A stretch of 28,093 bases of DNA from a virus. A program made the translations under genes and the position numbers. This document shows positions 12,875 through 28,093 of the stretch, piece after piece. A model generated the notes under the pieces. It searched no databases. It saw only the letters and a program-made list of their open reading frames with translations, and was not told the origin of the DNA. Each line of letters begins with the position of its first letter. Position 1 is the first letter of the stretch. The stretch lies in the IMG/VR virus record IMGVR_UViG_3300007734_000541, positions 1 to 28,093 of that record, one strand, 5' to 3'.

Positions 12875-14992
12875 TCAACCTCCGACCCAAGCCGTGCCAT
12901 TGTAGAATACCGGACAGGTAACAGCGCCGCCGCCAGTGAGCGCCACCCCGACACCAGCGCACGTCGTCAACTGGTTTGTGACGTATGCGCGTGCGCCAGT
13001 GCCGGGAGCCGCCGGAAGAGCAGCCACGGTGTAGCCGCCGGTCGTGATCGTTCCCGTAAACGTAGGTGATGTTGCAAACACCAGCGCACCAGATCCGGTC
13101 TTGTCAGTGACGGCGGCGGCCAGATTGGCGCTCGATGGCGTTGCTAGAAAGGTTGCAACACCAGTTCCAAGGCCGGTGATCCCCCCAACCGGAACAGCCG
13201 CTGCGGTAACGGATGTGTTGCAGCCAAATCCAGTATTAGTTGTCCATGTCAGCGCGCTTGCTGTCGTTGAGCAGCTTGAAATTGCAAGAGCCGTAGGAGT
13301 TGCTGTACTGGCCGTCGCGTTGCCCATGACGGAGTTGGTGGCGAGAGATTGCTGCGCCTCTATCAACGTCCATTGAGCAGCGGCGGCCCAATAGAAGAGT
13401 TCCACGCTCTTCGTCGCCCCAAGCGTGGCGATAGTCCCCGAGATTGTATCCCCCACGCGGCCTACGTTGAGCGTTAGAGCCGTGATGTTGTAGGTGGACT
13501 GAATTACTGCGCGCTGGCCGTCGCCGGGATTGGGCGGCAACGTGATGATGAGCGTGGCGAGCGTGCCAGCCGGGACCAACTTCAGGATGCCCGTCGTCTC
13601 GGCCATCGTCACCGTCTGGCCGGTCGTGGGAGACGCAAGCTGATAGTTATGCTCCAGCTCGCTACGGAACACACCGACATTATTTGCGCCACCAACAAAA
13701 AACGGCGTGGCGGCGTTGATATTCGGGCCGATGAAGCGGTTGTTGCTGCCCGCCGTAGCCCTGACGGCGTAAGTCCCGTATGCCCACTGCCCACCGATGA
13801 AGGTATTTGCCGTAGCGCCAGCCGAGTCAATATCGACGCAGTACCCGACTACTTCGCAGTCAGGCGCAGAAAAGACATTGCCGTAGTTGAAGCTATTGGT
13901 GATATGAATGGCGGTGACAGTGCTGCCCACCGTTCCGCCGACAGACACATCGAAGTTGCCGAAGGCGACCTGTCGAAGCTGAAGCACCTTGCCCGCCGCC
14001 GCCGCTGTAGCGCCGACTCCGCCGTTTATAGCGAAGTTCGGGTTGTAGACCGCGTTAAGCTGCACAGCGACGGCATTCGCGTGGTCGCTTTGGTTGTAGA
14101 CCCAGATCGACAGCTTCATGCGGTTCTGCTGGTCGCTATAGTCGGTATAGCCCAGACGAAGAACCGGGCTGGCGATGTCCGCGCGAAATGCCATTCCACG
14201 CATGGTAACGTAGGCACCAATCGCGGGCGTGATGATGCTGCCGCCAGAAGTAACAACGCTAAATGGATAAGTCCCCCCTGTCGTCATAGTCGAGACGAAC
14301 TGGGAGCTTTGCTCGCCGTCACCGTACAGGGTGAACCCCGTGTACTGGCGCAAAACGTAATCGAAAACGACCGCGCTGGTCGTCTTGTAGGTTCCGGCCG
14401 GTGCGTAGCCTGAACTTCCGGTTGCCATCACGCGGGCAAACCACGCATTGACGGCAGACGTGTCGTCGGCAGAGTTATCACCAACAGCGCCGCAGCCCCG
14501 CAGATTGATAATGCCGTATTCGAGTCGGAAATATCGACCAGCGGTCCCAGAAGGCGGATTAACGACGTTGCAGACATTTACCGCCGTTGAACTCCCGGCT
14601 ACCCAATAGAACTGGCCGCCGCCGCCATCACCAGCTGTCGTGTATCCCTGAACCGTAACGGCAGCAGGTCGCGTCGTAAGTGCTGTAAGCGCGGCAATAT
14701 TGGAAACCGATATGGCTACACTGGTGCCAACTGCATAAGGCGTTGCCGCTCGCGTGTAGCAGACAGTCGTGCCAGCGGTCGGCTGCACCTGAAAGATATC
14801 GTCCGCCGCCGAGCAGGCCCCAGCAGACAGGTTGAAGATGCCGGGGTTGGCGTCAACGACCTGCACCACCGTGGGGCGGCTTGTCGTCATCGCCTTGAGC
14901 GCGGAAATCGACGGGACCGTGTAATACTGCGTCTGCGTCTGCGCGAAGGCCGGTGAGGCGAGAAACAGAAGAGCGAACAGGAGCTTTTTCAT
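12875..14992 (-). CDS. Tailspike-like beta-helix protein with a Sec signal peptide, 705 aa
   Basis: The ATG at 14992 makes an ATGA overlap with the previous stop and gives MKKLLFALLFLASPAFA, a typical signal peptide, then QTQTQ. Residues 24-60 and 96-130 look like two related small modules. Residues 162-190 carry the pectate-lyase-superfamily motif (INLRGCGAVGDNSADDTSAV), followed by ~250 residues of parallel beta-helix type. The C-terminal 150 residues are a fibre-type Ala/Thr/Gly region (SANLAAAVTDKTGSGALVFA; AALPAAPGTGARAYVTNQL). It probably recognises or cleaves a surface glycan, but no active site can be named. An in-frame start 16 residues further upstream (TTG/ATG region) is less convincing. 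A signal peptide on a tailspike is odd. Confidence 0.78.
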   Translation of the reverse strand: MKKLLFALLFLASPAFAQTQTQYYTVPSISALKAMTTSRPTVVQVVDANPGIFNLSAGACSAADDIFQVQPTAGTTVCYTRAATPYAVGTSVAISVSNIAALTALTTRPAAVTVQGYTTAGDGGGGQFYWVAGSSTAVNVCNVVNPPSGTAGRYFRLEYGIINLRGCGAVGDNSADDTSAVNAWFARVMATGSSGYAPAGTYKTTSAVVFDYVLRQYTGFTLYGDGEQSSQFVSTMTTGGTYPFSVVTSGGSIITPAIGAYVTMRGMAFRADIASPVLRLGYTDYSDQQNRMKLSIWVYNQSDHANAVAVQLNAVYNPNFAINGGVGATAAAAGKVLQLRQVAFGNFDVSVGGTVGSTVTAIHITNSFNYGNVFSAPDCEVVGYCVDIDSAGATANTFIGGQWAYGTYAVRATAGSNNRFIGPNINAATPFFVGGANNVGVFRSELEHNYQLASPTTGQTVTMAETTGILKLVPAGTLATLIITLPPNPGDGQRAVIQSTYNITALTLNVGRVGDTISGTIATLGATKSVELFYWAAAAQWTLIEAQQSLATNSVMGNATASTATPTALAISSCSTTASALTWTTNTGFGCNTSVTAAAVPVGGITGLGTGVATFLATPSSANLAAAVTDKTGSGALVFATSPTFTGTITTGGYTVAALPAAPGTGARAYVTNQLTTCAGVGVALTGGGAVTCPVFYNGTAWVGG

Positions 14993-21995: not shown

Positions 21996-22054
21996 TACAA
22001 TCTCCCTTGCCGCGCTCGGACGCGGATGTTGTAGATGGGGGGATAGTGCTGCAT
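21995..22054 (-). CDS. Translationally coupled micro-ORF, 19 aa
   Basis: The terminase stop and this ATG form TGATG, and its own stop forms TAATG with the next gene, so the 19-residue frame (MQHYPPIYNIRVRARQGRL) exactly fills the space between them. Such double coupling suggests that ribosomes pass through it, whether or not the peptide has a function. It has no strong ribosome-binding site of its own and would rely on reinitiation. Confidence 0.45.
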   Translation of the reverse strand: MQHYPPIYNIRVRARQGRL

Positions 22055-23601
22055 CAAACGATCCCCCTAAGACCGCGCTTCAGGGCCTGACCCGGCACCC
22101 ACTTCATCCCTCGCCCACCAACCAGTGCGGCATCGCCGGCAAAGGTCAGGCACAGGGAGTCGGCAATGTCGGGCGAGCGGCGAATGCGCTTGCGCATCTC
22201 GTCCTTCGATTCGATCTTGTAGGTGCCGTTGGAATTGAACTTGTAAAGCGGCGCGCTGATCTCAACGCGCAACTCCTCAACCTTCGGCAGCCTGCAGGCG
22301 CGCTGCTGCAGCCAATCGCGCAGCGTCAGCCACAGTTCATCGCGCAAGCGGCTGGCCTGCGGGTTCATCGCAGCACTCTCCGCGACGTTCACATCGCGGA
22401 CGTTGTACTTCAGTTCGCGCAGACGATCGGCAACGCCAGCGCCAAGGCCGATCGAGTCCACCAATATCTCGGCAGGCTTGTCCTTCATCGCCTCGTTGGC
22501 AACCCAGCCGACCGTCTCCATCAGGTCGTTGCCGCTGCGAATCTGGAACTCCAACACCACGTTGCCTTGGCGCTTGCAGATTACACTGCGGTCGCCGCCG
22601 AAGCGGGCAACGTCAACGCCGAAGACCAGCGGTTCCGCCGTGTTCAGCACAACGTCGCGCTTCATTGCGGCATCGACCAGATCAACGGGGATCAGGCTGT
22701 TGTCTTCAGTGCGCGGGAACTCGCCCAGCACTCGCACCGAATACTGCGGGCTGTCCTCGCCCCAGGTTTCGGCAACCTGCTGCACGAAGTCCTGGTCCAC
22801 AAGGTCGGCAAGGTCGGGGTCGAGGCAGGAGACCGTCATCCGCTCCCAGCGGTCGGCTAGTTCGTTGTGAGACTTGTAGAACAAGCCGGTGAGGCGGGTC
22901 GGGTTGCCGACCAGCACCGTCGTTGCACTGTGGCCTGACATCGAGCCGGTGGCCGCCTCGTACACCGACTCAGGAATGCCGCTTGCCTCGTCGGCAATCA
23001 GCAGCACGTTCTCCGAGTGAATACCGGCCATTGCTTCCGGCTTGTCGCTACTGCTGGTCCTGGCGCTGATGAAGCTGCCGTCAGGGTCGGCCTTGAGTTC
23101 GATGCGGTCGCTGTAGACTTCCAGCAGCGCCTTGAGTGGCGGCGGCAAGCGGGTGATCCAGCTTTTGAGTTCGGCAAAGAGGGCGTCGAATAGCTGCGGC
23201 GCGGTTGGGGCCGTGACGACGCTCTTCTGCGGCAGGCGGCAGATGATCGACCAGATTAGCACCCATGCCACTGCCGTGGACTTGCCGACGCCGTGGCCCG
23301 CCTTGATGGAGATGCGGCGCTTGCCGTTGGCGACGTGGGTCAGGAATTCGCGCTGCCACTTCTTGGGCTTTGCGCCTAGCACTTCTTCGGCAAAGGCGAC
23401 GGGGTCGCTTTGGTATTTTTCTAAAAATTCTATAAAAGCAGAGGTCCCGGCTTGGGACCCATGGGGGTGGGGGGTATGAGGGGCCGACCCTACTGTGCGC
23501 GGGTGGTCGTCACCGACACCGCCCCGCGAGGTGGTCCCCCCTGGCGGGGGGTGCCTGGCGATCGGCGGTCGGCCTCGCCCCTTGAGCTTGACGGCGGACA
23601 C
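22054..23601 (-). CDS. terL: Terminase large subunit, 515 aa
   Basis: The ATPase domain has Walker A AGHGVGKST (residues 101-109), Walker B VLLIADEA (199-206) and a coupling-type VGNPT (231-235). The nuclease domain shows the RNase H-like acidic residues in FGVDVARFGGDRS (D330), ILVDSIG (D382) and RSPDIADSL (D478/D481). It cuts concatemeric DNA and pumps it into the procapsid through the portal. The GTG start at 23601 overlaps the TerS stop by one base. The first ~55 residues are Pro/Gly/His-rich with an AT-hook-like GRGRPP. No in-frame ATG or GTG lies closer to the conserved part, so the GTG is kept. Confidence 0.9.
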   Translation of the reverse strand: MSAVKLKGRGRPPIARHPPPGGTTSRGGVGDDHPRTVGSAPHTPHPHGSQAGTSAFIEFLEKYQSDPVAFAEEVLGAKPKKWQREFLTHVANGKRRISIKAGHGVGKSTAVAWVLIWSIICRLPQKSVVTAPTAPQLFDALFAELKSWITRLPPPLKALLEVYSDRIELKADPDGSFISARTSSSDKPEAMAGIHSENVLLIADEASGIPESVYEAATGSMSGHSATTVLVGNPTRLTGLFYKSHNELADRWERMTVSCLDPDLADLVDQDFVQQVAETWGEDSPQYSVRVLGEFPRTEDNSLIPVDLVDAAMKRDVVLNTAEPLVFGVDVARFGGDRSVICKRQGNVVLEFQIRSGNDLMETVGWVANEAMKDKPAEILVDSIGLGAGVADRLRELKYNVRDVNVAESAAMNPQASRLRDELWLTLRDWLQQRACRLPKVEELRVEISAPLYKFNSNGTYKIESKDEMRKRIRRSPDIADSLCLTFAGDAALVGGRGMKWVPGQALKRGLRGIV

Positions 23602-24194
23602 TAGATGTTGTTCCCGTCTGCGTCTAACGCGTCGGACCGCGTGCTGTTCACGTCCACGTTTACGCTATCCCCTTGATCTGTAACGATTTTATCGCTTTTA
23701 CCCGATTTTCCATAATGTACGTTATACGGGTTCACAGTGTTACCGCTATAAACCGGCGAGCTAGCTTCGATGGGTGTCGCGCCATCTCCTGGCGTTGTAT
23801 CCTTTTGAATACGACGCGAGGCGAGCGCGCGGATTGCCTCGATGTGGCTGCCGTTCAGGTCCAGGCTGACCGATACTGAACGGTCTACCCACATGCCCAA
23901 ACTCTTGCCGATTAACTCCTCGGCCCTAACGGCAGCAGGATAATTACCGCTTTCCTCCGCTTTAACTGACAGGTTATCTAGCCGTGTCAGTACTCGGTCG
24001 GCAGTAACCTCATGCCGCTTGCTCAAGCGCTCTATCCGCTTCTTCACACTAGCTTTACCTAACAAGCGAACGGCAGCGACACTTGCGCCCTTTTCACTGT
24101 AACCGGCAGCGATGGCTGCTCGCGTCCCATTGCCGTGCAGGGCGATATATTCCGCCGCGAAGCTTGCTTGTTTTAAGGTGAGACCGTCAGGCAC
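23601..24194 (-). CDS. terS: Terminase small subunit, 197 aa
   Basis: The conserved start LTLKQASFAAEYIALHGNGT, AAIAAGYSEKGASVAAVRLL and KRIERLSKRHEVTADRVL matches the Terminase_2 family: an N-terminal helix-turn-helix followed by an oligomerisation helix. It recognises the packaging site and passes DNA to TerL. I choose the GTG at 24194 because the family begins a few residues before LTxKQ. A GTG at 24248 would add 18 hydrophobic residues and put the start inside the operator. No good ribosome-binding site is seen for either. The last ~50 residues are Ser/Asp/Asn-rich and disordered; part of them (VNVDVNS) is encoded by a copy of the ACGTCC repeat. Confidence 0.85.
   Translation of the reverse strand: MPDGLTLKQASFAAEYIALHGNGTRAAIAAGYSEKGASVAAVRLLGKASVKKRIERLSKRHEVTADRVLTRLDNLSVKAEESGNYPAAVRAEELIGKSLGMWVDRSVSVSLDLNGSHIEAIRALASRRIQKDTTPGDGATPIEASSPVYSGNTVNPYNVHYGKSGKSDKIVTDQGDSVNVDVNSTRSDALDADGNNI
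23649..23664 (+). repeat. Isolated ACGTCC-type repeat in the terS 3' end
   Basis: CACGTCCACGTTTACG lies within the last 25 codons of terS and encodes VNVDVN on the minus strand, in the disordered C-terminus. The sense relative to the plus strand is the same as in the other clusters. Confidence 0.6.
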
Positions 24195-24238
24195 CTTTAA
24201 GGCGGAAAAGAAAACCGGGAAATACGTCAATCTGAGAA

Positions 24239-24267
24239 TTGACACCACGCAATTAGTGTCATAACTT
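24239..24267 (+). promoter_or_regulatory. Rightward sigma70-type promoter for the plus-strand gene group
   Basis: A perfect -35 box TTGACA (24239-24244) is followed, after 17 nt, by TAACTT (24262-24267), a weak -10. It points to the gene starting at 24315. The weak -10 and the operator-like repeat within the spacer suggest a controlled early promoter that uses host RNA polymerase. Confidence 0.55.
24240..24261. promoter_or_regulatory. Operator-like inverted repeat in the divergent control region
   Basis: TGACAC (24240-24245) and GTGTCA (24256-24261) form a perfect 6-bp dyad with a 10-nt spacer. It overlaps the -35 box and fills the spacer of the rightward promoter, a classical place for repressor binding. 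Two ACGTCA elements flank it at 24224-24229 and 24269-24274. It also lies just upstream of TerS on the other strand, so one regulator could control both directions. Confidence 0.55.
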
Positions 24268-24314: not shown

Positions 24315-25067
24315 ATGAAGCCCACCGGACATGTGATCTATAACGGCCCGTCCCTTTTGGACGGCGCACCTATCGCAGTTGTCGCGATTGTAAAGAGCCG
24401 CAATCGTAAGACTGCTAACATGCTGCAGACTTACATAATCCGCAGTGATGTAGACCCTATTACAGCCAATAGGCTCGGCCTTGACTACAGTAACTGCGGA
24501 CACTGTCCGCACCGTGGTCGCGCCGACAGTAACAAGGCGACAGGCCTTGCACCCGGTCGCAGTTGCTACGTTAATATGGGACAAGGCCCGCTTGGCGTTT
24601 ATCGCACGCTATGCAAGGGCCGCTACCCTCGCGCTATCGGGCATGCTGCAATTGCTGCAGTCGGCGCGAACCGTATGGTGCGAATTGGCACCTATGGTGA
24701 CGGTGCCGCTGTTCCAGGTTTCATTTGGGATAGCCTGACAAGCAAATCGGACGGGCATACGGCCTACTCGCACCAACGCTACGTCACTAGCTCAAGCTAT
24801 GACGCAAAGCGCTACATGGTCTCAGCTGATACTCTCAGCGAAGCGCAAAGCGCATGGCGTGTCGGCGCACGTACATTCCGCATCATGCAGAATGTAACCG
24901 ATCTGCAGGCCGGCCAGGAGATACTTTGCCCTGCATCGGAAGAGGCCGGAAAGCGCACCAATTGTGCAAAGTGTGGCCTATGCGCTGGCGCTAGCATCGC
25001 AGCAAAGAGTATCGCCATTGTCGCCCATGGCGCGGGCGCGTCTCACTTTGAGGCGCGTCATGCATAA
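24315..25067 (+). CDS. Cysteine-rich phage protein of unknown function, 250 aa
   Basis: This is the first plus-strand gene, with a GGAGA site and the promoter upstream. I recall relatives in many phages of proteobacteria but no established function. The N-terminal part has GPSLLDGAPIAVVAIVKSRN and KTANMLQTYIIR. Then come C61-GH-C64-PHRG, C84 in RSCYVNMGQGP and C100. A central RIGTYGDGAAVP and a C-terminal C205, C217-AK-C220-GL-C223 follow. Eight cysteines in two CxxC-type clusters suggest a zinc or iron-sulphur site. Position first behind a regulated promoter suggests an early takeover or DNA-metabolism role; this is inference. Confidence 0.75.
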   Translation: MKPTGHVIYNGPSLLDGAPIAVVAIVKSRNRKTANMLQTYIIRSDVDPITANRLGLDYSNCGHCPHRGRADSNKATGLAPGRSCYVNMGQGPLGVYRTLCKGRYPRAIGHAAIAAVGANRMVRIGTYGDGAAVPGFIWDSLTSKSDGHTAYSHQRYVTSSSYDAKRYMVSADTLSEAQSAWRVGARTFRIMQNVTDLQAGQEILCPASEEAGKRTNCAKCGLCAGASIAAKSIAIVAHGAGASHFEARHA

Positions 25068-25140
25068 CCTAGCCTTGAACATTTCCGGGGTGCTGGCGTT
25101 TGCGGCGCTTTGGATAATCGTCTTCCTCTATCTGCTGTGA
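25060..25140 (+). CDS. Single-span membrane peptide, 26 aa
   Basis: An ATG at 25060 overlaps the end of the 250-aa gene by 8 nt and encodes MHNLALNISGVLAFAALWII plus VFLYLL, almost entirely one hydrophobic helix. The stop is followed 12 nt later by the next gene. No own ribosome-binding site is clear, so coupling to the upstream gene is likely. Its overlap and composition support a real gene, but function (membrane effector, anti-superinfection, other) is open. Confidence 0.55.
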   Translation: MHNLALNISGVLAFAALWIIVFLYLL

Positions 25141-25152
25141 AGGGAAAATAAA

Positions 25153-25527
25153 ATGAGCACGTTTAATTTCATCCAGCCCGTCGAATTCCTTATGCGTTAC
25201 GAGGCTGACACAATCGAAGAGGCGCGGTCTAAAGCGCTAGAGTTTTCCGCTACGCATACTGTCGGGGATTTTTGGGATGCGGCGCAAAATCTTTGGATAC
25301 TTGACCCACGCGAGGATACGGACGACTGCGAACCTGAAGGCGTAGATCGCGGCCCCAGTAACGCCATTTCGCGCGAGGAATTACACTCAGCTCTGCACGA
25401 ATTGGTGAAGGTCTCCCTGGGTGTCGTCGCGACATGGGAGGGGGGAGACCTTGCTTTGGCGGTCAACGCACTAGAGCAGGTTGCGCTAGATGCGCAGTTT
25501 ATCCTCAATAAGAAGGCCCACACCTAA
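25153..25527 (+). CDS. Unknown early protein, 124 aa
   Basis: This acidic protein (MSTFNFIQPVEFLMRYEADT ...) has an N-terminal region with EADTIEEARSKALEF, like small alpha/beta phage proteins. Two C-terminal helices follow (SREELHSALHELVKVSLG; LALAVNALEQVALDAQFILN). A site AAGGGAA precedes the ATG. No catalytic motif or named family is seen. Confidence 0.65.
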   Translation: MSTFNFIQPVEFLMRYEADTIEEARSKALEFSATHTVGDFWDAAQNLWILDPREDTDDCEPEGVDRGPSNAISREELHSALHELVKVSLGVVATWEGGDLALAVNALEQVALDAQFILNKKAHT

Positions 25528-25541
25528 GCTTTGCCCATGGC

Positions 25542-25582
25542 CGCGCCAGTTAATAGCTGGCGCGGTATTGGCCAGCGCTTGG
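25542..25582 (+). repeat. Intergenic hairpin plus 13-nt direct repeat, copy 1
   Basis: An 8-bp stem CGCGCCAG-TTAATAG-CTGGCGCG (25542-25564) is followed 5 nt later by GGCCAGCGCTTGG (25570-25582) and then GCTGGA. The same arrangement returns before the 65-aa gene with a different stem sequence. It may be a partial terminator or an RNA-processing site between early genes. Confidence 0.6.
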
Positions 25583-25607
25583 AATGCTGGATCACGGAAG
25601 GAACAAA

Positions 25608-26024
25608 ATGCGCCTCAATCTAAATTCAGACGACAAAATCGTTGCAGCTCTCGCTGCCGTGAACGGGAAAGCGTTGTCGCACACTTTCACTTTAGCAAGT
25701 GAATTGCGTGCTGTAGCGCGAGACGCTGAAGAAAAGCTTTCGGAGTTAAACGTCCCCAAATCGATACGCAGCGGCGCAGTAGTCGCTGCGGAAAGTGGAG
25801 AGCGCCTGCCGAATAAATATAAATATCAGGCGACGACTACGCTAGTTTATCTAGAGAGAGGATCGTCGGGATGGTTTCTTACGTCAGCGAGGCGAAGTGA
25901 AATTTGGCCAGACCAAAAGCCACACTATTTCCTGCGCCTGACTGCAGCCCAGGACATGGCCGCTGTTGATCGGTTCCGCTCGCAGTATGCTCGCCGCGAT
26001 CCGGTGCAGATGGTTAGCTTGTAG
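25608..26024 (+). CDS. Unknown early protein, 138 aa
   Basis: The ATG at 25608 follows GGAAGGA; an earlier in-frame ATG at 25584 would add eight residues but lacks a site. The product (MRLNLNSDDKIVAALAAVNG ...) is basic, with a helical first half and a beta-rich second half containing TTTLVYLERGSSGWFLTSAR, then a helical C-terminus. I recognise no family. It is framed by the two intergenic repeat units. Confidence 0.65.
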   Translation: MRLNLNSDDKIVAALAAVNGKALSHTFTLASELRAVARDAEEKLSELNVPKSIRSGAVVAAESGERLPNKYKYQATTTLVYLERGSSGWFLTSARRSEIWPDQKPHYFLRLTAAQDMAAVDRFRSQYARRDPVQMVSL

Positions 26025-26042
26025 CACAAGCGCCGCCCTTGA

Positions 26043-26082
26043 CCGCCCCGGCATCGCTGGGGCGGAATAGGCCAGCGCTTGG
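26043..26082 (+). repeat. Intergenic hairpin plus 13-nt direct repeat, copy 2
   Basis: A 10-bp stem CCGCCCCGGC-ATC-GCTGGGGCGG (one G-T pair, 26043-26065) is followed by GGCCAGCGCTTGG (26070-26082) and GCTGGA. The stem sequence differs from copy 1, yet its base pairing is kept and the downstream 13-mer is identical, which suggests selection on structure. Confidence 0.6.
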
Positions 26083-26103
26083 GCTGGACATAGGAGATTA
26101 ACA

Positions 26104-26301
26104 ATGCGTCAGTCTATCCATTACCATTATGAGCAGCTAAACTATAATGAGCAGGACTTTGTCGATTGGGTTTTTTCCGACGTTTTCGACAAAGCGCGGA
26201 AAGCAAAAATTCCCCTTCACGGCGACGACACAATTGAACGTGCGGTAGATGCTTTCGCCCGTGCAGTCATTAAAAGCCGCACGTCCACGTCCAGCGATTA
26301 G
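26104..26301 (+). CDS. Small unknown early protein, 65 aa
   Basis: A TAGGAGATTA site precedes the ATG. The product (MRQSIHYHYEQLNYNEQDFV ...) is helical and Tyr/Asp-rich at the N-terminus, with a basic second half. Its last residues (TSTSSD) are encoded by two ACGTCC repeat units followed by the stop, so the end of the gene was shaped by the repeat. No family is recognised. Confidence 0.6.
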   Translation: MRQSIHYHYEQLNYNEQDFVDWVFSDVFDKARKAKIPLHGDDTIERAVDAFARAVIKSRTSTSSD

Positions 26302-26345
26302 CCACGTCCACGTCCACGTTAAATCTTCACTCACGTCCACGTTCA
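26281..26345 (+). repeat. ACGTCC hexanucleotide repeat cluster, copy 1
   Basis: Three groups of tandem ACGTCC units lie at 26281-26292, 26302-26320 and 26332-26345, from the last codons of the 65-aa gene up to the ribosome-binding site of the next gene. The same hexamer appears at 23649-23664, 27361-27426 and 27592-27634, always in the plus-strand sense. Confidence 0.8.
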
Positions 26346-26356
26346 GGAGGAAAAGC

Positions 26357-26566
26357 ATGACACGCGACCATTTCCGCACCGACAACACGGAAGGCTACAC
26401 GACCGACGACCTCGCATGCCTTAATGATTTATTCCGCGCCATGTGCGCGGCGGAAAACGTCGACCCTGTGGACGGTGAGAAGTCTCACTTGGATTATTTG
26501 GGCGAGAAAATTCTGGCCGCATACGATGCGGGCAAGGTGGCCGGCATTGTGGAAATCGGGCGATGA
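26357..26566 (+). CDS. Small unknown early protein, 69 aa
   Basis: The longer open frame upstream only reads through the repeat (HVHVHVKSS) and is not a plausible start. The ATG at 26357 has AGGAGG 7-8 nt before it. The product (MTRDHFRTDNTEGYTTDDLA ...) is acidic and helical, with LNDLFRAMCAAENVDPVDGE, a pattern of short phage proteins of unknown role. It overlaps the next gene as ATGA. Confidence 0.65.
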   Translation: MTRDHFRTDNTEGYTTDDLACLNDLFRAMCAAENVDPVDGEKSHLDYLGEKILAAYDAGKVAGIVEIGR

Positions 26567-26835
26567 AAAGGCACAAAACCTACGCCCCCGGCGACAAGGT
26601 CGCTTATTCCGCCGCGTTCCTGCGATCAACCAGCCAGTACACGGGCGATGTCCCGTTCCTGCGGGGTGAGATTGTGGCGGTCGAGCCTCTCGGGGAGCGG
26701 CAGCTTTGCACGATCCAATGGTCCCTGGGCTGTAAGCCAGTGCGCATGCCTAGCCAGTATCACGACGACGGGCTTGGCCGTGTTATTAGTTCCAATCTCA
26801 CGTTAGTGTCACGCCTCGCGCTTGACGCCGCATAG
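26563..26835 (+). CDS. Small unknown early protein, 90 aa
   Basis: The ATG overlaps the previous stop (ATGA). The sequence MKRHKTYAPGDKVAYSAAFL, then GEIVAVEPLGERQLCTIQWS is beta-rich and recalls SH3-like small phage proteins that begin with a basic segment followed by GDKVAY. A function cannot be assigned. Confidence 0.65.
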   Translation: MKRHKTYAPGDKVAYSAAFLRSTSQYTGDVPFLRGEIVAVEPLGERQLCTIQWSLGCKPVRMPSQYHDDGLGRVISSNLTLVSRLALDAA

Positions 26836-26844
26836 GATGATTTG

Positions 26845-27135
26845 ATGAATGACATTGATAAATTTCCCGTGCGCGTCTGCGGAATAGACGTGACTGGATA
26901 CAAGCGACAAGGCGAGCCTTGGCAGGACGCGGCAGCAAGGGCTATCCGGCGCGCGTTGAAGGGTCGCGGCATTGCCACTTCGTGGCGATTAGAAGCGCAT
27001 GAAAAGCACGGCGCGCACGCCATGCGGTACCACGTGCGGGCGACCATAGTCGGCACTGCTAGCAGTGGCGGTTCCAGTCCGATCCTAGGAGAGGCGCAAG
27101 CCATCCTGTCGGACGAGACATTTGAACGGGGATGA
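26845..27135 (+). CDS. Small unknown early protein, 96 aa
   Basis: The ATG at 26845 is preferred over the TTG one codon before. The product (MNDIDKFPVRVCGIDVTGYK ...) carries WQDAAARAIRRALKGRGIAT and HAMRYHVRATIVG, an alpha/beta pattern with a basic helix that could touch nucleic acid. No named family is recognised. The next gene starts 3 nt after its stop. Confidence 0.62.
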   Translation: MNDIDKFPVRVCGIDVTGYKRQGEPWQDAAARAIRRALKGRGIATSWRLEAHEKHGAHAMRYHVRATIVGTASSGGSSPILGEAQAILSDETFERG

Positions 27136-27138
27136 TTA

Positions 27139-27378
27139 GTGACAGACTTGGACCTATTCTGCACCTGCGGCGAAGCCCTATTCGGCCCGCAGTGGCAATC
27201 GGAGCTTGCGCGCCAGCTAAACGTAAGTGTGCGCACGATGCAGCGCTGGGCGGCGGGTGAATTCGCCATACCGCCAGGCGTGTGGGTCGATCTACTGAAA
27301 CTGCTGGCTGATCGGCAGAATGAATTGGCTAAACTGCGTCCGTTGCTGCAAAAGCAGGTTACGTCCACGTCAGACTAG
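27139..27378 (+). CDS. Helix-turn-helix DNA-binding protein, 79 aa
   Basis: A GTG start follows GGGGAT. Residues 14-49 (ALFGPQWQSELARQLNVSVR then TMQRWAAGEFAIP) form a helix-turn-helix of a type seen in many small phage and plasmid proteins; the GPxWQSELAR-VSxRTMQRW motif is characteristic. It may regulate transcription, and the divergent operator is a natural candidate target. The C-terminal residues TSTSD come from the ACGTCC repeat, as in the 65-aa protein. Confidence 0.75.
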   Translation: MTDLDLFCTCGEALFGPQWQSELARQLNVSVRTMQRWAAGEFAIPPGVWVDLLKLLADRQNELAKLRPLLQKQVTSTSD

Positions 27379-27426
27379 ACCGCACGTCTACGTCGGCTGA
27401 TCGTCCACGTCCACGTCTACGTCCGC
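27361..27426 (+). repeat. ACGTCC hexanucleotide repeat cluster, copy 2
   Basis: Units ACGTCCACGTC (27361-27371), CACGTCTACGTC (27383-27394) and a longer run (27402-27426) join the ends of two convergent genes. The cluster encodes the C-terminus of the 79-aa protein on one strand and the last codons and stop of the 85-aa protein on the other. No T-rich terminator is seen between these genes. Confidence 0.8.
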
Positions 27427-27674
27427 ACCAGCGCCCGACGCAGGTTGAGCCTGCACAGTTGACGGCGCATGCCCTTGTTGGCATGCAGGCCCAACGCACG
27501 TCGGCGGTCGAACACGCTGCTAATTGGCCGCTCGATATGCTTGGCAATCTCCGCGTCCGAATAGCCCGCTCCTGACATACGCTGGATGACTGCGTCCACG
27601 TCCGCCGTCCACGATAGCGGGCGTCCACGTCGACGCTTGCCGGGTGCTGCGTCTGCGTTCGGGCTGTCGCTCAT
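27417..27674 (-). CDS. Small DNA-binding protein with AT-hook-like motif, 85 aa
   Basis: The ATG at 27674 overlaps the stop of the nuclease gene (ATGA); the longer upstream frame is a shadow of that gene. Residues 14-21 are KRRRGRPL, an AT-hook-like basic patch. Then WTADVDAVIQRMSGAGYSDA, EIAKHIERPISSV and FDRRRALGL form a helix-turn-helix resembling GcrA/Myb-like domains. A basic tail follows. Part of the DNA contains ACGTCC units. It may act with the neighbouring nuclease or as a regulator. Confidence 0.68.
   Translation of the reverse strand: MSDSPNADAAPGKRRRGRPLSWTADVDAVIQRMSGAGYSDAEIAKHIERPISSVFDRRRALGLHANKGMRRQLCRLNLRRALVRT
27592..27634 (+). repeat. ACGTCC-type repeats inside the 85-aa gene
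   Basis: GCGTCCACGTCC, GCCGTCCACG and GCGTCCACGTCGACG appear within 43 nt. They encode the RRGRP and TADVDA segments on the minus strand. They may be true repeat copies or chance products of Arg/Gly/Asp codons. Confidence 0.5.
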
Positions 27675-28093
27675 TGCATCACCATCCACCTTGCCAGCAG
27701 CGCGGCTTCCGCCCGTCCGTCGTCCTTCTTGCGGGAGAACATGGCCGAGTGATCGGGCCAGAGCCGGGTCGCCATAAGGCGAGCCGCGTCCTTGTCGGCG
27801 GGCACGCCAGCATCCCTCTTCCATTTTGCTGGCCGCACCATGATGAGCGGGTAGCCCAGCGCCGCGATCACCCCCTCCAGCACGCCCAACCCACGGCCAA
27901 AGGAGAACATGCTGCTGACCCCCTGCCCCGGCATTGCGTTCACGTCTTCAAGGACGATCCGGTCGGGCTTGGTCTCCACGATCAGGTCCACCACGCCGGG
28001 TGCCAGGATTCTGGAACGCCCCTTGACCATGATTGTCGGCATGTCGGCCACCCGGACCAGCACGTCGCCGTCCAGCAGGGCCATCGCACCGGA
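27671..28093 (-). CDS. RuvC-like Holliday junction nuclease, 5' end cut by the window edge
   Basis: The ATG at 28084 is probably internal: the frame stays open to the window end and reads SGAMALLDGD, which fits the start of RuvC proteins just after their catalytic GIDPG. The visible part has the catalytic-type Glu in IVLEDVNAMPGQGVSSMFSF (E46 counted from 28084) and the C-terminal KKDDGRAEAALLARW, with D121/D122 matching the third and fourth RuvC acidic residues. It would resolve branched DNA before packaging or support recombination. The first acidic residue lies outside the window. Confidence 0.82.
   Translation of the reverse strand, partial: SGAMALLDGDVLVRVADMPTIMVKGRSRILAPGVVDLIVETKPDRIVLEDVNAMPGQGVSSMFSFGRGLGVLEGVIAALGYPLIMVRPAKWKRDAGVPADKDAARLMATRLWPDHSAMFSRKKDDGRAEAALLARWMVMQ

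Follow-up and report, generated by a model that had tools for sequence, protein, structure and literature searches.

What is a short DNA repeat, ACGTCC, doing at the ends of small phage genes: has it spread there and been tolerated, or is it an array of binding sites for a phage protein? The question arises from IMGVR_UViG_3300007734_000541, an uncultivated tailed phage; we analysed its record of 28,093 bases (60% GC) as a whole and call it the window. The minus strand carries the virion genes. TerL (22054-23601) shares 61% identity with its counterpart in Sinorhizobium phage phiM5, and terS lies next to it. From 24315 to 27378, small plus-strand genes converge on a minus-strand pair formed by an 85-aa gene and a RuvC-like resolvase gene (Table 1). 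The 79-aa HTH protein at the end of this series was also considered as Aca2, YdaS or VC1465, but each scored below curated cut-offs.

The initial annotation placed clusters of ACGTCC at several positions in this region, all in one sense and in need of comparison with shuffled sequence; the clusters, their sense and the excess all hold. ACGTCYACGT occurs nine times on the plus strand and never on the minus strand, whereas Markov models of the window of order 2, 3 and 4 (300 runs per order) give means of 0.07, 0.06 and 0.2 and a maximum of 2. With up to two mismatches, 18 sites of ACGTCCACGTCC are found against 3.15 (sd 2.04) in shuffles, a number reached by 0 of 100 shuffles. The core CGTCCACGTC, with at most one mismatch, lies on the plus strand at 23651, 26282, 26305, 26311, 26334, 27362, 27385, 27402, 27408, 27414, 27593, 27622 and 27937; the first 23.5 kb holds 4 further scattered copies where 1.7 are expected, and on the minus strand of the window there are 0 copies. 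Head-to-tail units so far above chance are what is expected of a short tandem repeat.

Successive 10-bp cores are mostly separated by steps of 6 bp and 23 bp. Two 23-bp steps are found in cluster 1 (26282-26305 and 26311-26334) and two in cluster 2 (27362-27385 and 27385-27408), that is, at two non-homologous sites; in the 85-aa gene the step is 29 bp (23+6). TRF reports period 23 both in the window and in its closest relative. Because 23-bp steps occur besides those of 6 bp, the multiplied unit may consist of an 11-bp core and a spacer of 12 bp, alongside the plain hexamer.

Table 1. Repeat clusters and neighbouring genes in the window.
Feature	Position	Strand	Evidence or comparison
Cluster 1: final codons and stop codon of the 65-aa gene, gap, up to AGGAGG of the next gene	26281-26345	+	L137:2378-2429 of the relative is a homologous array
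Cluster 2: final codons of the 79-aa HTH gene, convergent gap, stop codon of the 85-aa gene	27361-27426	+	TRF period 23; the relative's homologous cluster has a 23-bp-type insertion
Cluster 3: pair of cores at a distance of 29 bp within the 85-aa gene, antisense to it	27592-27632	+	2 exact cores; synonymous-codon simulation p = 0.0004
Weak copy ACGTCCACGTTT, antisense to terS and within its 3' coding end	23650-23661	+	GCGTCCGCGTTC in the relative
Island homologous to the relative, with cluster 1 and the 65-aa gene's 3' end	26242-26351	+	75% identity; flanks without homology
Terminase small subunit gene (terS)	23601-24248	-	Pfam PF03592, E 4e-16
65-aa gene, last codons formed by the repeat	26104-26301	+	C-terminal 26 residues alone match the relative's gene
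79-aa HTH protein gene, TSTSD tail from the repeat	27139-27378	+	PHROG 12690, E 2.9e-15; PHROG 3626, E 9e-12
85-aa putative DNA-binding protein gene, stop and several codons from the repeat	27417-27674	-	PHROG 323, E 3e-4
RuvC-like resolvase gene, with the ORF limits called in the window	27671-28084	-	PHROG 1770, E 1e-30

The repeat does reach into coding sequence as first described: it provides the last codons of both the 65-aa and the 79-aa genes, each tail being read from ACG TCC ACG TC, and the stop codon of the 85-aa gene, a TAG (27417-27419, minus strand) inside ACGTCTACGTCC at 27413-27424. The common tail TSTSxD needs a small correction: both genes share TSTS, but the 65-aa product ends in RTSTSSD-stop and the 79-aa product in VTSTSD-stop, so that TSTSSD stands against TSTSD. 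Placement at gene 3' ends describes clusters 1 and 2 well, but not the whole family, since the copy at 23650-23661 is within the terS coding end (NVDVN codons) and the pair at 27592-27632 is within the first third of the 85-aa gene (TADVDA, RRRGRP).

Homologues of the 79-aa protein with 48-59% identity (in L043, L140, L141, L144 and Acidovorax phage Aval) have other endings, without the TSTSD tail; in the homologues found, the tails are not kept at the protein level with other codons. Missing from these homologues, the tail is lineage-specific, a by-product made by the repeat.

Searching viral contigs with the 85-aa protein and p250 yielded one close relative that alone had the repeat, IMG/VR contig 3300020172_002269 (G001; locus L137) of 39.3 kb; among 50,697 phage records, 26024-27690 has no DNA match. 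Its TerL is 99% identical to that of the window in the best segment and 95% by another alignment. The relative carries the ACGTCC family at the same sites with more copies: five tandem units against three at site 1, a longer site 2 with a 23-bp-type insertion, and additional copies in the 85-aa gene. Copy number hence differs between close relatives, as in short tandem repeats. Thirteen of the relative's exact cores lie within 13878-14832 and 1 in the other ~38 kb; across its 39.3 kb, the repeat is not equally frequent in conserved coding regions.

In terS and in the 85-aa gene, some differences are due to substitution and leave the length unchanged; in the 85-aa gene this is seen on comparing the relative at L137:3173 with the window from 27498 onward. 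One example in the 85-aa protein is FDRRRAL to FGRRRDL, where a rare AGA codon creates ACGTCTACGTCC on the opposite strand. We simulated synonymous codons for this gene, holding the protein, drawing codons by phage usage and counting exact cores: an equal core count was obtained in 0.04% of runs for the window (p 0.0004) and in 0.3% for the relative (p 0.003). The excess over what protein and codon usage demand means that a process at the DNA level acts inside the gene, through either selection or the templated copying of short stretches. Neither the viral contigs nor the 50,697 phage records yielded an outgroup for the 85-aa gene, the phage records having no match to its protein.

The position of the arrays is best seen from gene content. 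Homology between window and relative stops at 25113 and restarts at 27145, at the start of the 79-aa gene; in between, the small genes differ, and the relative lacks any match to p69, p90, p97, p146 and p124. Between these breakpoints, matches are limited to copies of a hairpin (25524-25603 and 26035-26087) and to the island of ~110 bp that contains the first array, homology of the 65-aa gene being confined to its last 26 residues. Hairpin and array island are alike while the small genes differ, thus junction sequences outlast the genes between them, and we attribute the placing of the repeat to this gene content: cassettes differ, junctions stay alike.

The hairpin is a second repeated junction element, a long predicted RNA structure located before a Shine-Dalgarno sequence and a start codon. 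It has two copies in the window (plus strand) and one in the relative (L137:2147-2222), with fold z-scores of -3.3 to -3.5 and no Rfam match. The copies differ in paired fashion, CCGCGCCAG..CTGGCGCGG versus CCGCCCCGGC..GCTGGGGCGG, with the string GGCCAGCGCTTGG in common. Four phages with a homologue of the 250-aa gene (24315-25067), namely L150, L152, L154 and L155, each have their own dispersed palindromic junction element; several copies directly precede start codons, like the ESAS of Cluster K mycobacteriophages. In L150 it is ACTCGGGGGAACGGTTCCCCCGAGTTTTTT, followed by GGAG and ATG, with 8 copies in 4.3 kb.

Three perfect units of the hexamer are found in 46 stretches among 2.9 million viral contigs, mostly as single runs. 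One of the denser stretches (14 units) is L094, of the same clade (TerL 60%, portal 66%, MCP 80%); its array is upstream of a ruvC-like gene and has the same sense relative to ruvC as in the window. Long hexamer arrays are also present in bacteria of many phyla, Myxococcales foremost, among the matches listed. Since such arrays occur in many unrelated bacteria, growth of the ACGTCC unit needs no phage-specific function, and together with those in viral contigs they make slippage-type growth of the unit ordinary. For the same reason, a host repeat as the source was set aside: with arrays in so many unrelated taxa among the matches listed, no host is indicated.

Other repeats were seen in passing. 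L112 and L300, apparently one viral locus in two contigs, have ACGTCY arrays with CTGTTT spacers that differ in copy number, an independent case of the ACGTCY repeat. In L138, CTGTTACG repeats precede a ruvC-like gene (1975-2275) and CCGATATAT repeats lie within it (2560-2680), with the 14-unit ACGTCC array adjoining. L012:7123-7378 holds ~27 copies of CGTCAGCCAG in a 127-aa reading frame, encoding SQPASQPAS. TerL relatives (L003, L009, L018, L045, L050, L066, L067 and others) carry an array of 8-11 bp units within or close to the gap that follows a primase-helicase-type gene; its sequence differs per lineage while the place is fixed, and these arrays resemble variable origin iterons. The GGACTGGC/CTGGCGGA array behind the primase-helicase-type gene at L137:4461-4560 is probably their counterpart.

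With lineage-specific tails, changing copy number, restriction to one strand, overall excess, DNA-level excess within a gene and position at cassette joints all observed, we give a probability of about one half to the ACGTCC family being a short tandem repeat, specific to this lineage, that slippage and short templated copying have spread and that sits at the junctions of exchangeable cassettes. The 6-bp unit, usually present as the core ACGTCCACGTC and often at a 23-bp step with a 12-bp spacer, would have multiplied locally in the early region through slippage during replication, through duplication of the 23-bp composite and by templated copying of short stretches. It sits largely where small cassettes meet, and window and relative differ in these cassettes. 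There it would be tolerated because its only effects are a disordered tail (TSTSD), a displaced stop or changed codons under low constraint, and a common junction sequence could aid cassette exchange via homologous recombination. The strong local excess on one strand and the RNA of the arrays, which folds no better than shuffles, were counted in favour. Of the possibilities named by the initial annotation, the better supported is a short repeat that spreads and is tolerated where genes end, in view of copy number, tail-less homologues of the HTH protein and clustering within ~1 kb of the relative, but copies also lie within terS and 85-aa coding sequence, in the latter above codon expectation. 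Several observations go against this reading: copies in the 85-aa gene arose partly via substitution and exceed codon expectation, neither of which pure slippage gives; the region's copies are all in one orientation, with a 23-bp step like the spacing of protein-bound iterons; and the L094 array, beside ruvC in the same sense, is more than accident would give.

The same single orientation and recurring 23-bp step, with the densest array flanked by two predicted DNA-binding proteins, are the reason why an array of asymmetric sites for the 79-aa HTH or the 85-aa protein, acting as stoperators or operators at junctions, retains an appreciable minority of the weight. Known stoperators are likewise asymmetric and mostly in one orientation (PMC6550527, PMC9283540), and sites gained by substitution, above codon expectation in the 85-aa gene, would suit such a function. 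We nevertheless find it doubtful: sites are absent elsewhere in the window and the relative, e.g. at virion-gene promoters, the number of copies is not stable, discrete operators do not usually consist of overlapping 6-bp tandem copies, the flanks of the HTH homologues in L140-L144 lack the motif, site and protein change in step in no relative, and an integrase or repressor cassette is not seen here. A bolder version, in which a putative array of asymmetric binding sites with a 23-bp step would have spread over junctions and also into the gene that encodes its regulator, there prevailing over codon choice, adding tails and founding a new stoperator-like family in the phiM5-related lineage, strikes us as rather unlikely.

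Transcription offers another possibility, namely that C-rich, G-poor ACGUCC in plus-strand transcripts is rut-like and loads Rho, ending transcription at gene ends and blocking antisense runs into the 85-aa gene and ruvC. Every copy does put the C-rich strand in the plus transcript, and cluster 2 lies between convergent genes without an intrinsic hairpin; but cluster 1 lies between co-directional genes immediately before the next Shine-Dalgarno sequence, the terS copies are distant from any plus-strand gene end and in L094 the array does not follow a gene but lies upstream of ruvC, which makes this improbable. An intrinsic terminator, a stable hairpin followed by a U run, was rejected (z -0.36 and 0.21), as was an RNA structure: the plus-strand RNA of the arrays folds no more strongly than shuffles (z -0.36, 0.21, -1.28) and the window has no Rfam family. 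The chances are slimmer still for replication-origin iterons of the phage, which the 23-bp step and the lineage-specific arrays near replication genes of relatives would suggest: those arrays are directly behind the primase-helicase-type gene, where the close relative has GGACTGGC (L137:4461-4560), 1.1-2 kb from its ACGTCC sites. We rejected them as the main reading, the equivalent place in the close relative holding a different repeat. Chance or coding bias (Thr-Ser, Asp-Val and Arg-Gly runs) in a 60% GC genome agrees with viral contigs having three units, mostly in a single run and many in coding sequence. It is already refuted by nine occurrences against 0.06-0.2 expected, the 9:0 strand ratio, the non-coding copies and the synonymous-codon test.

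The locus is a compact natural case of a phage in which non-coding repeat DNA has become stop codons and the tails of proteins, and of small-gene cassettes that vary while the sequence between them is kept. If the arrays are binding sites, a new regulatory system is added; if they are not, they illustrate the influence of short repeats on the ends of phage genes and on mosaic joints.

Among known systems, the SAS/ESAS of Cluster K mycobacteriophages (PMC3203893) are similarly dispersed junction repeats, mostly in one orientation, beside genes of different families, and the ESAS inverted repeats precede start codons as the window's hairpin does; ACGTCC differs in lying mainly at gene ends or inside genes, without a ribosome-pairing core, and sequence and hosts are unrelated. 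Unlike repeats located directly upstream of starts, the family precedes a Shine-Dalgarno sequence at just one end of cluster 1. With the stoperators of Cluster A mycobacteriophages (L5, Bxb1), the ACGTCC core shares a short asymmetric sequence, mainly one orientation and several copies per genome; stoperator sites are spread genome-wide, whereas ACGTCC forms tandem overlapping units in one region of about 1-4 kb. Nor is it placed as iterons are in relatives, at an origin near or in the initiator gene. Bacterial and phage microsatellites resemble it in the 6-bp unit, the tandem runs, the copy number varying between close relatives and the location in gaps and disordered protein ends, and ACGTCC arrays themselves occur in Myxococcales and others among the matches listed; what sets the family apart is that it is dispersed over four sites in a 4-kb stretch, all in one orientation, that part of it forms a 23-bp composite and that copies were gained by substitution inside a gene. 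At phage mosaic joints, short common sequences are known to flank exchanged genes as conserved boundaries. ACGTCC also flanks exchanged genes, but here the boundary is itself a multiplying repeat. The ACGTCC family is real and specific to its lineage; it joins the known classes of short tandem repeats and phage gene-junction repeats, and most likely belongs to a known sort of short repeat.
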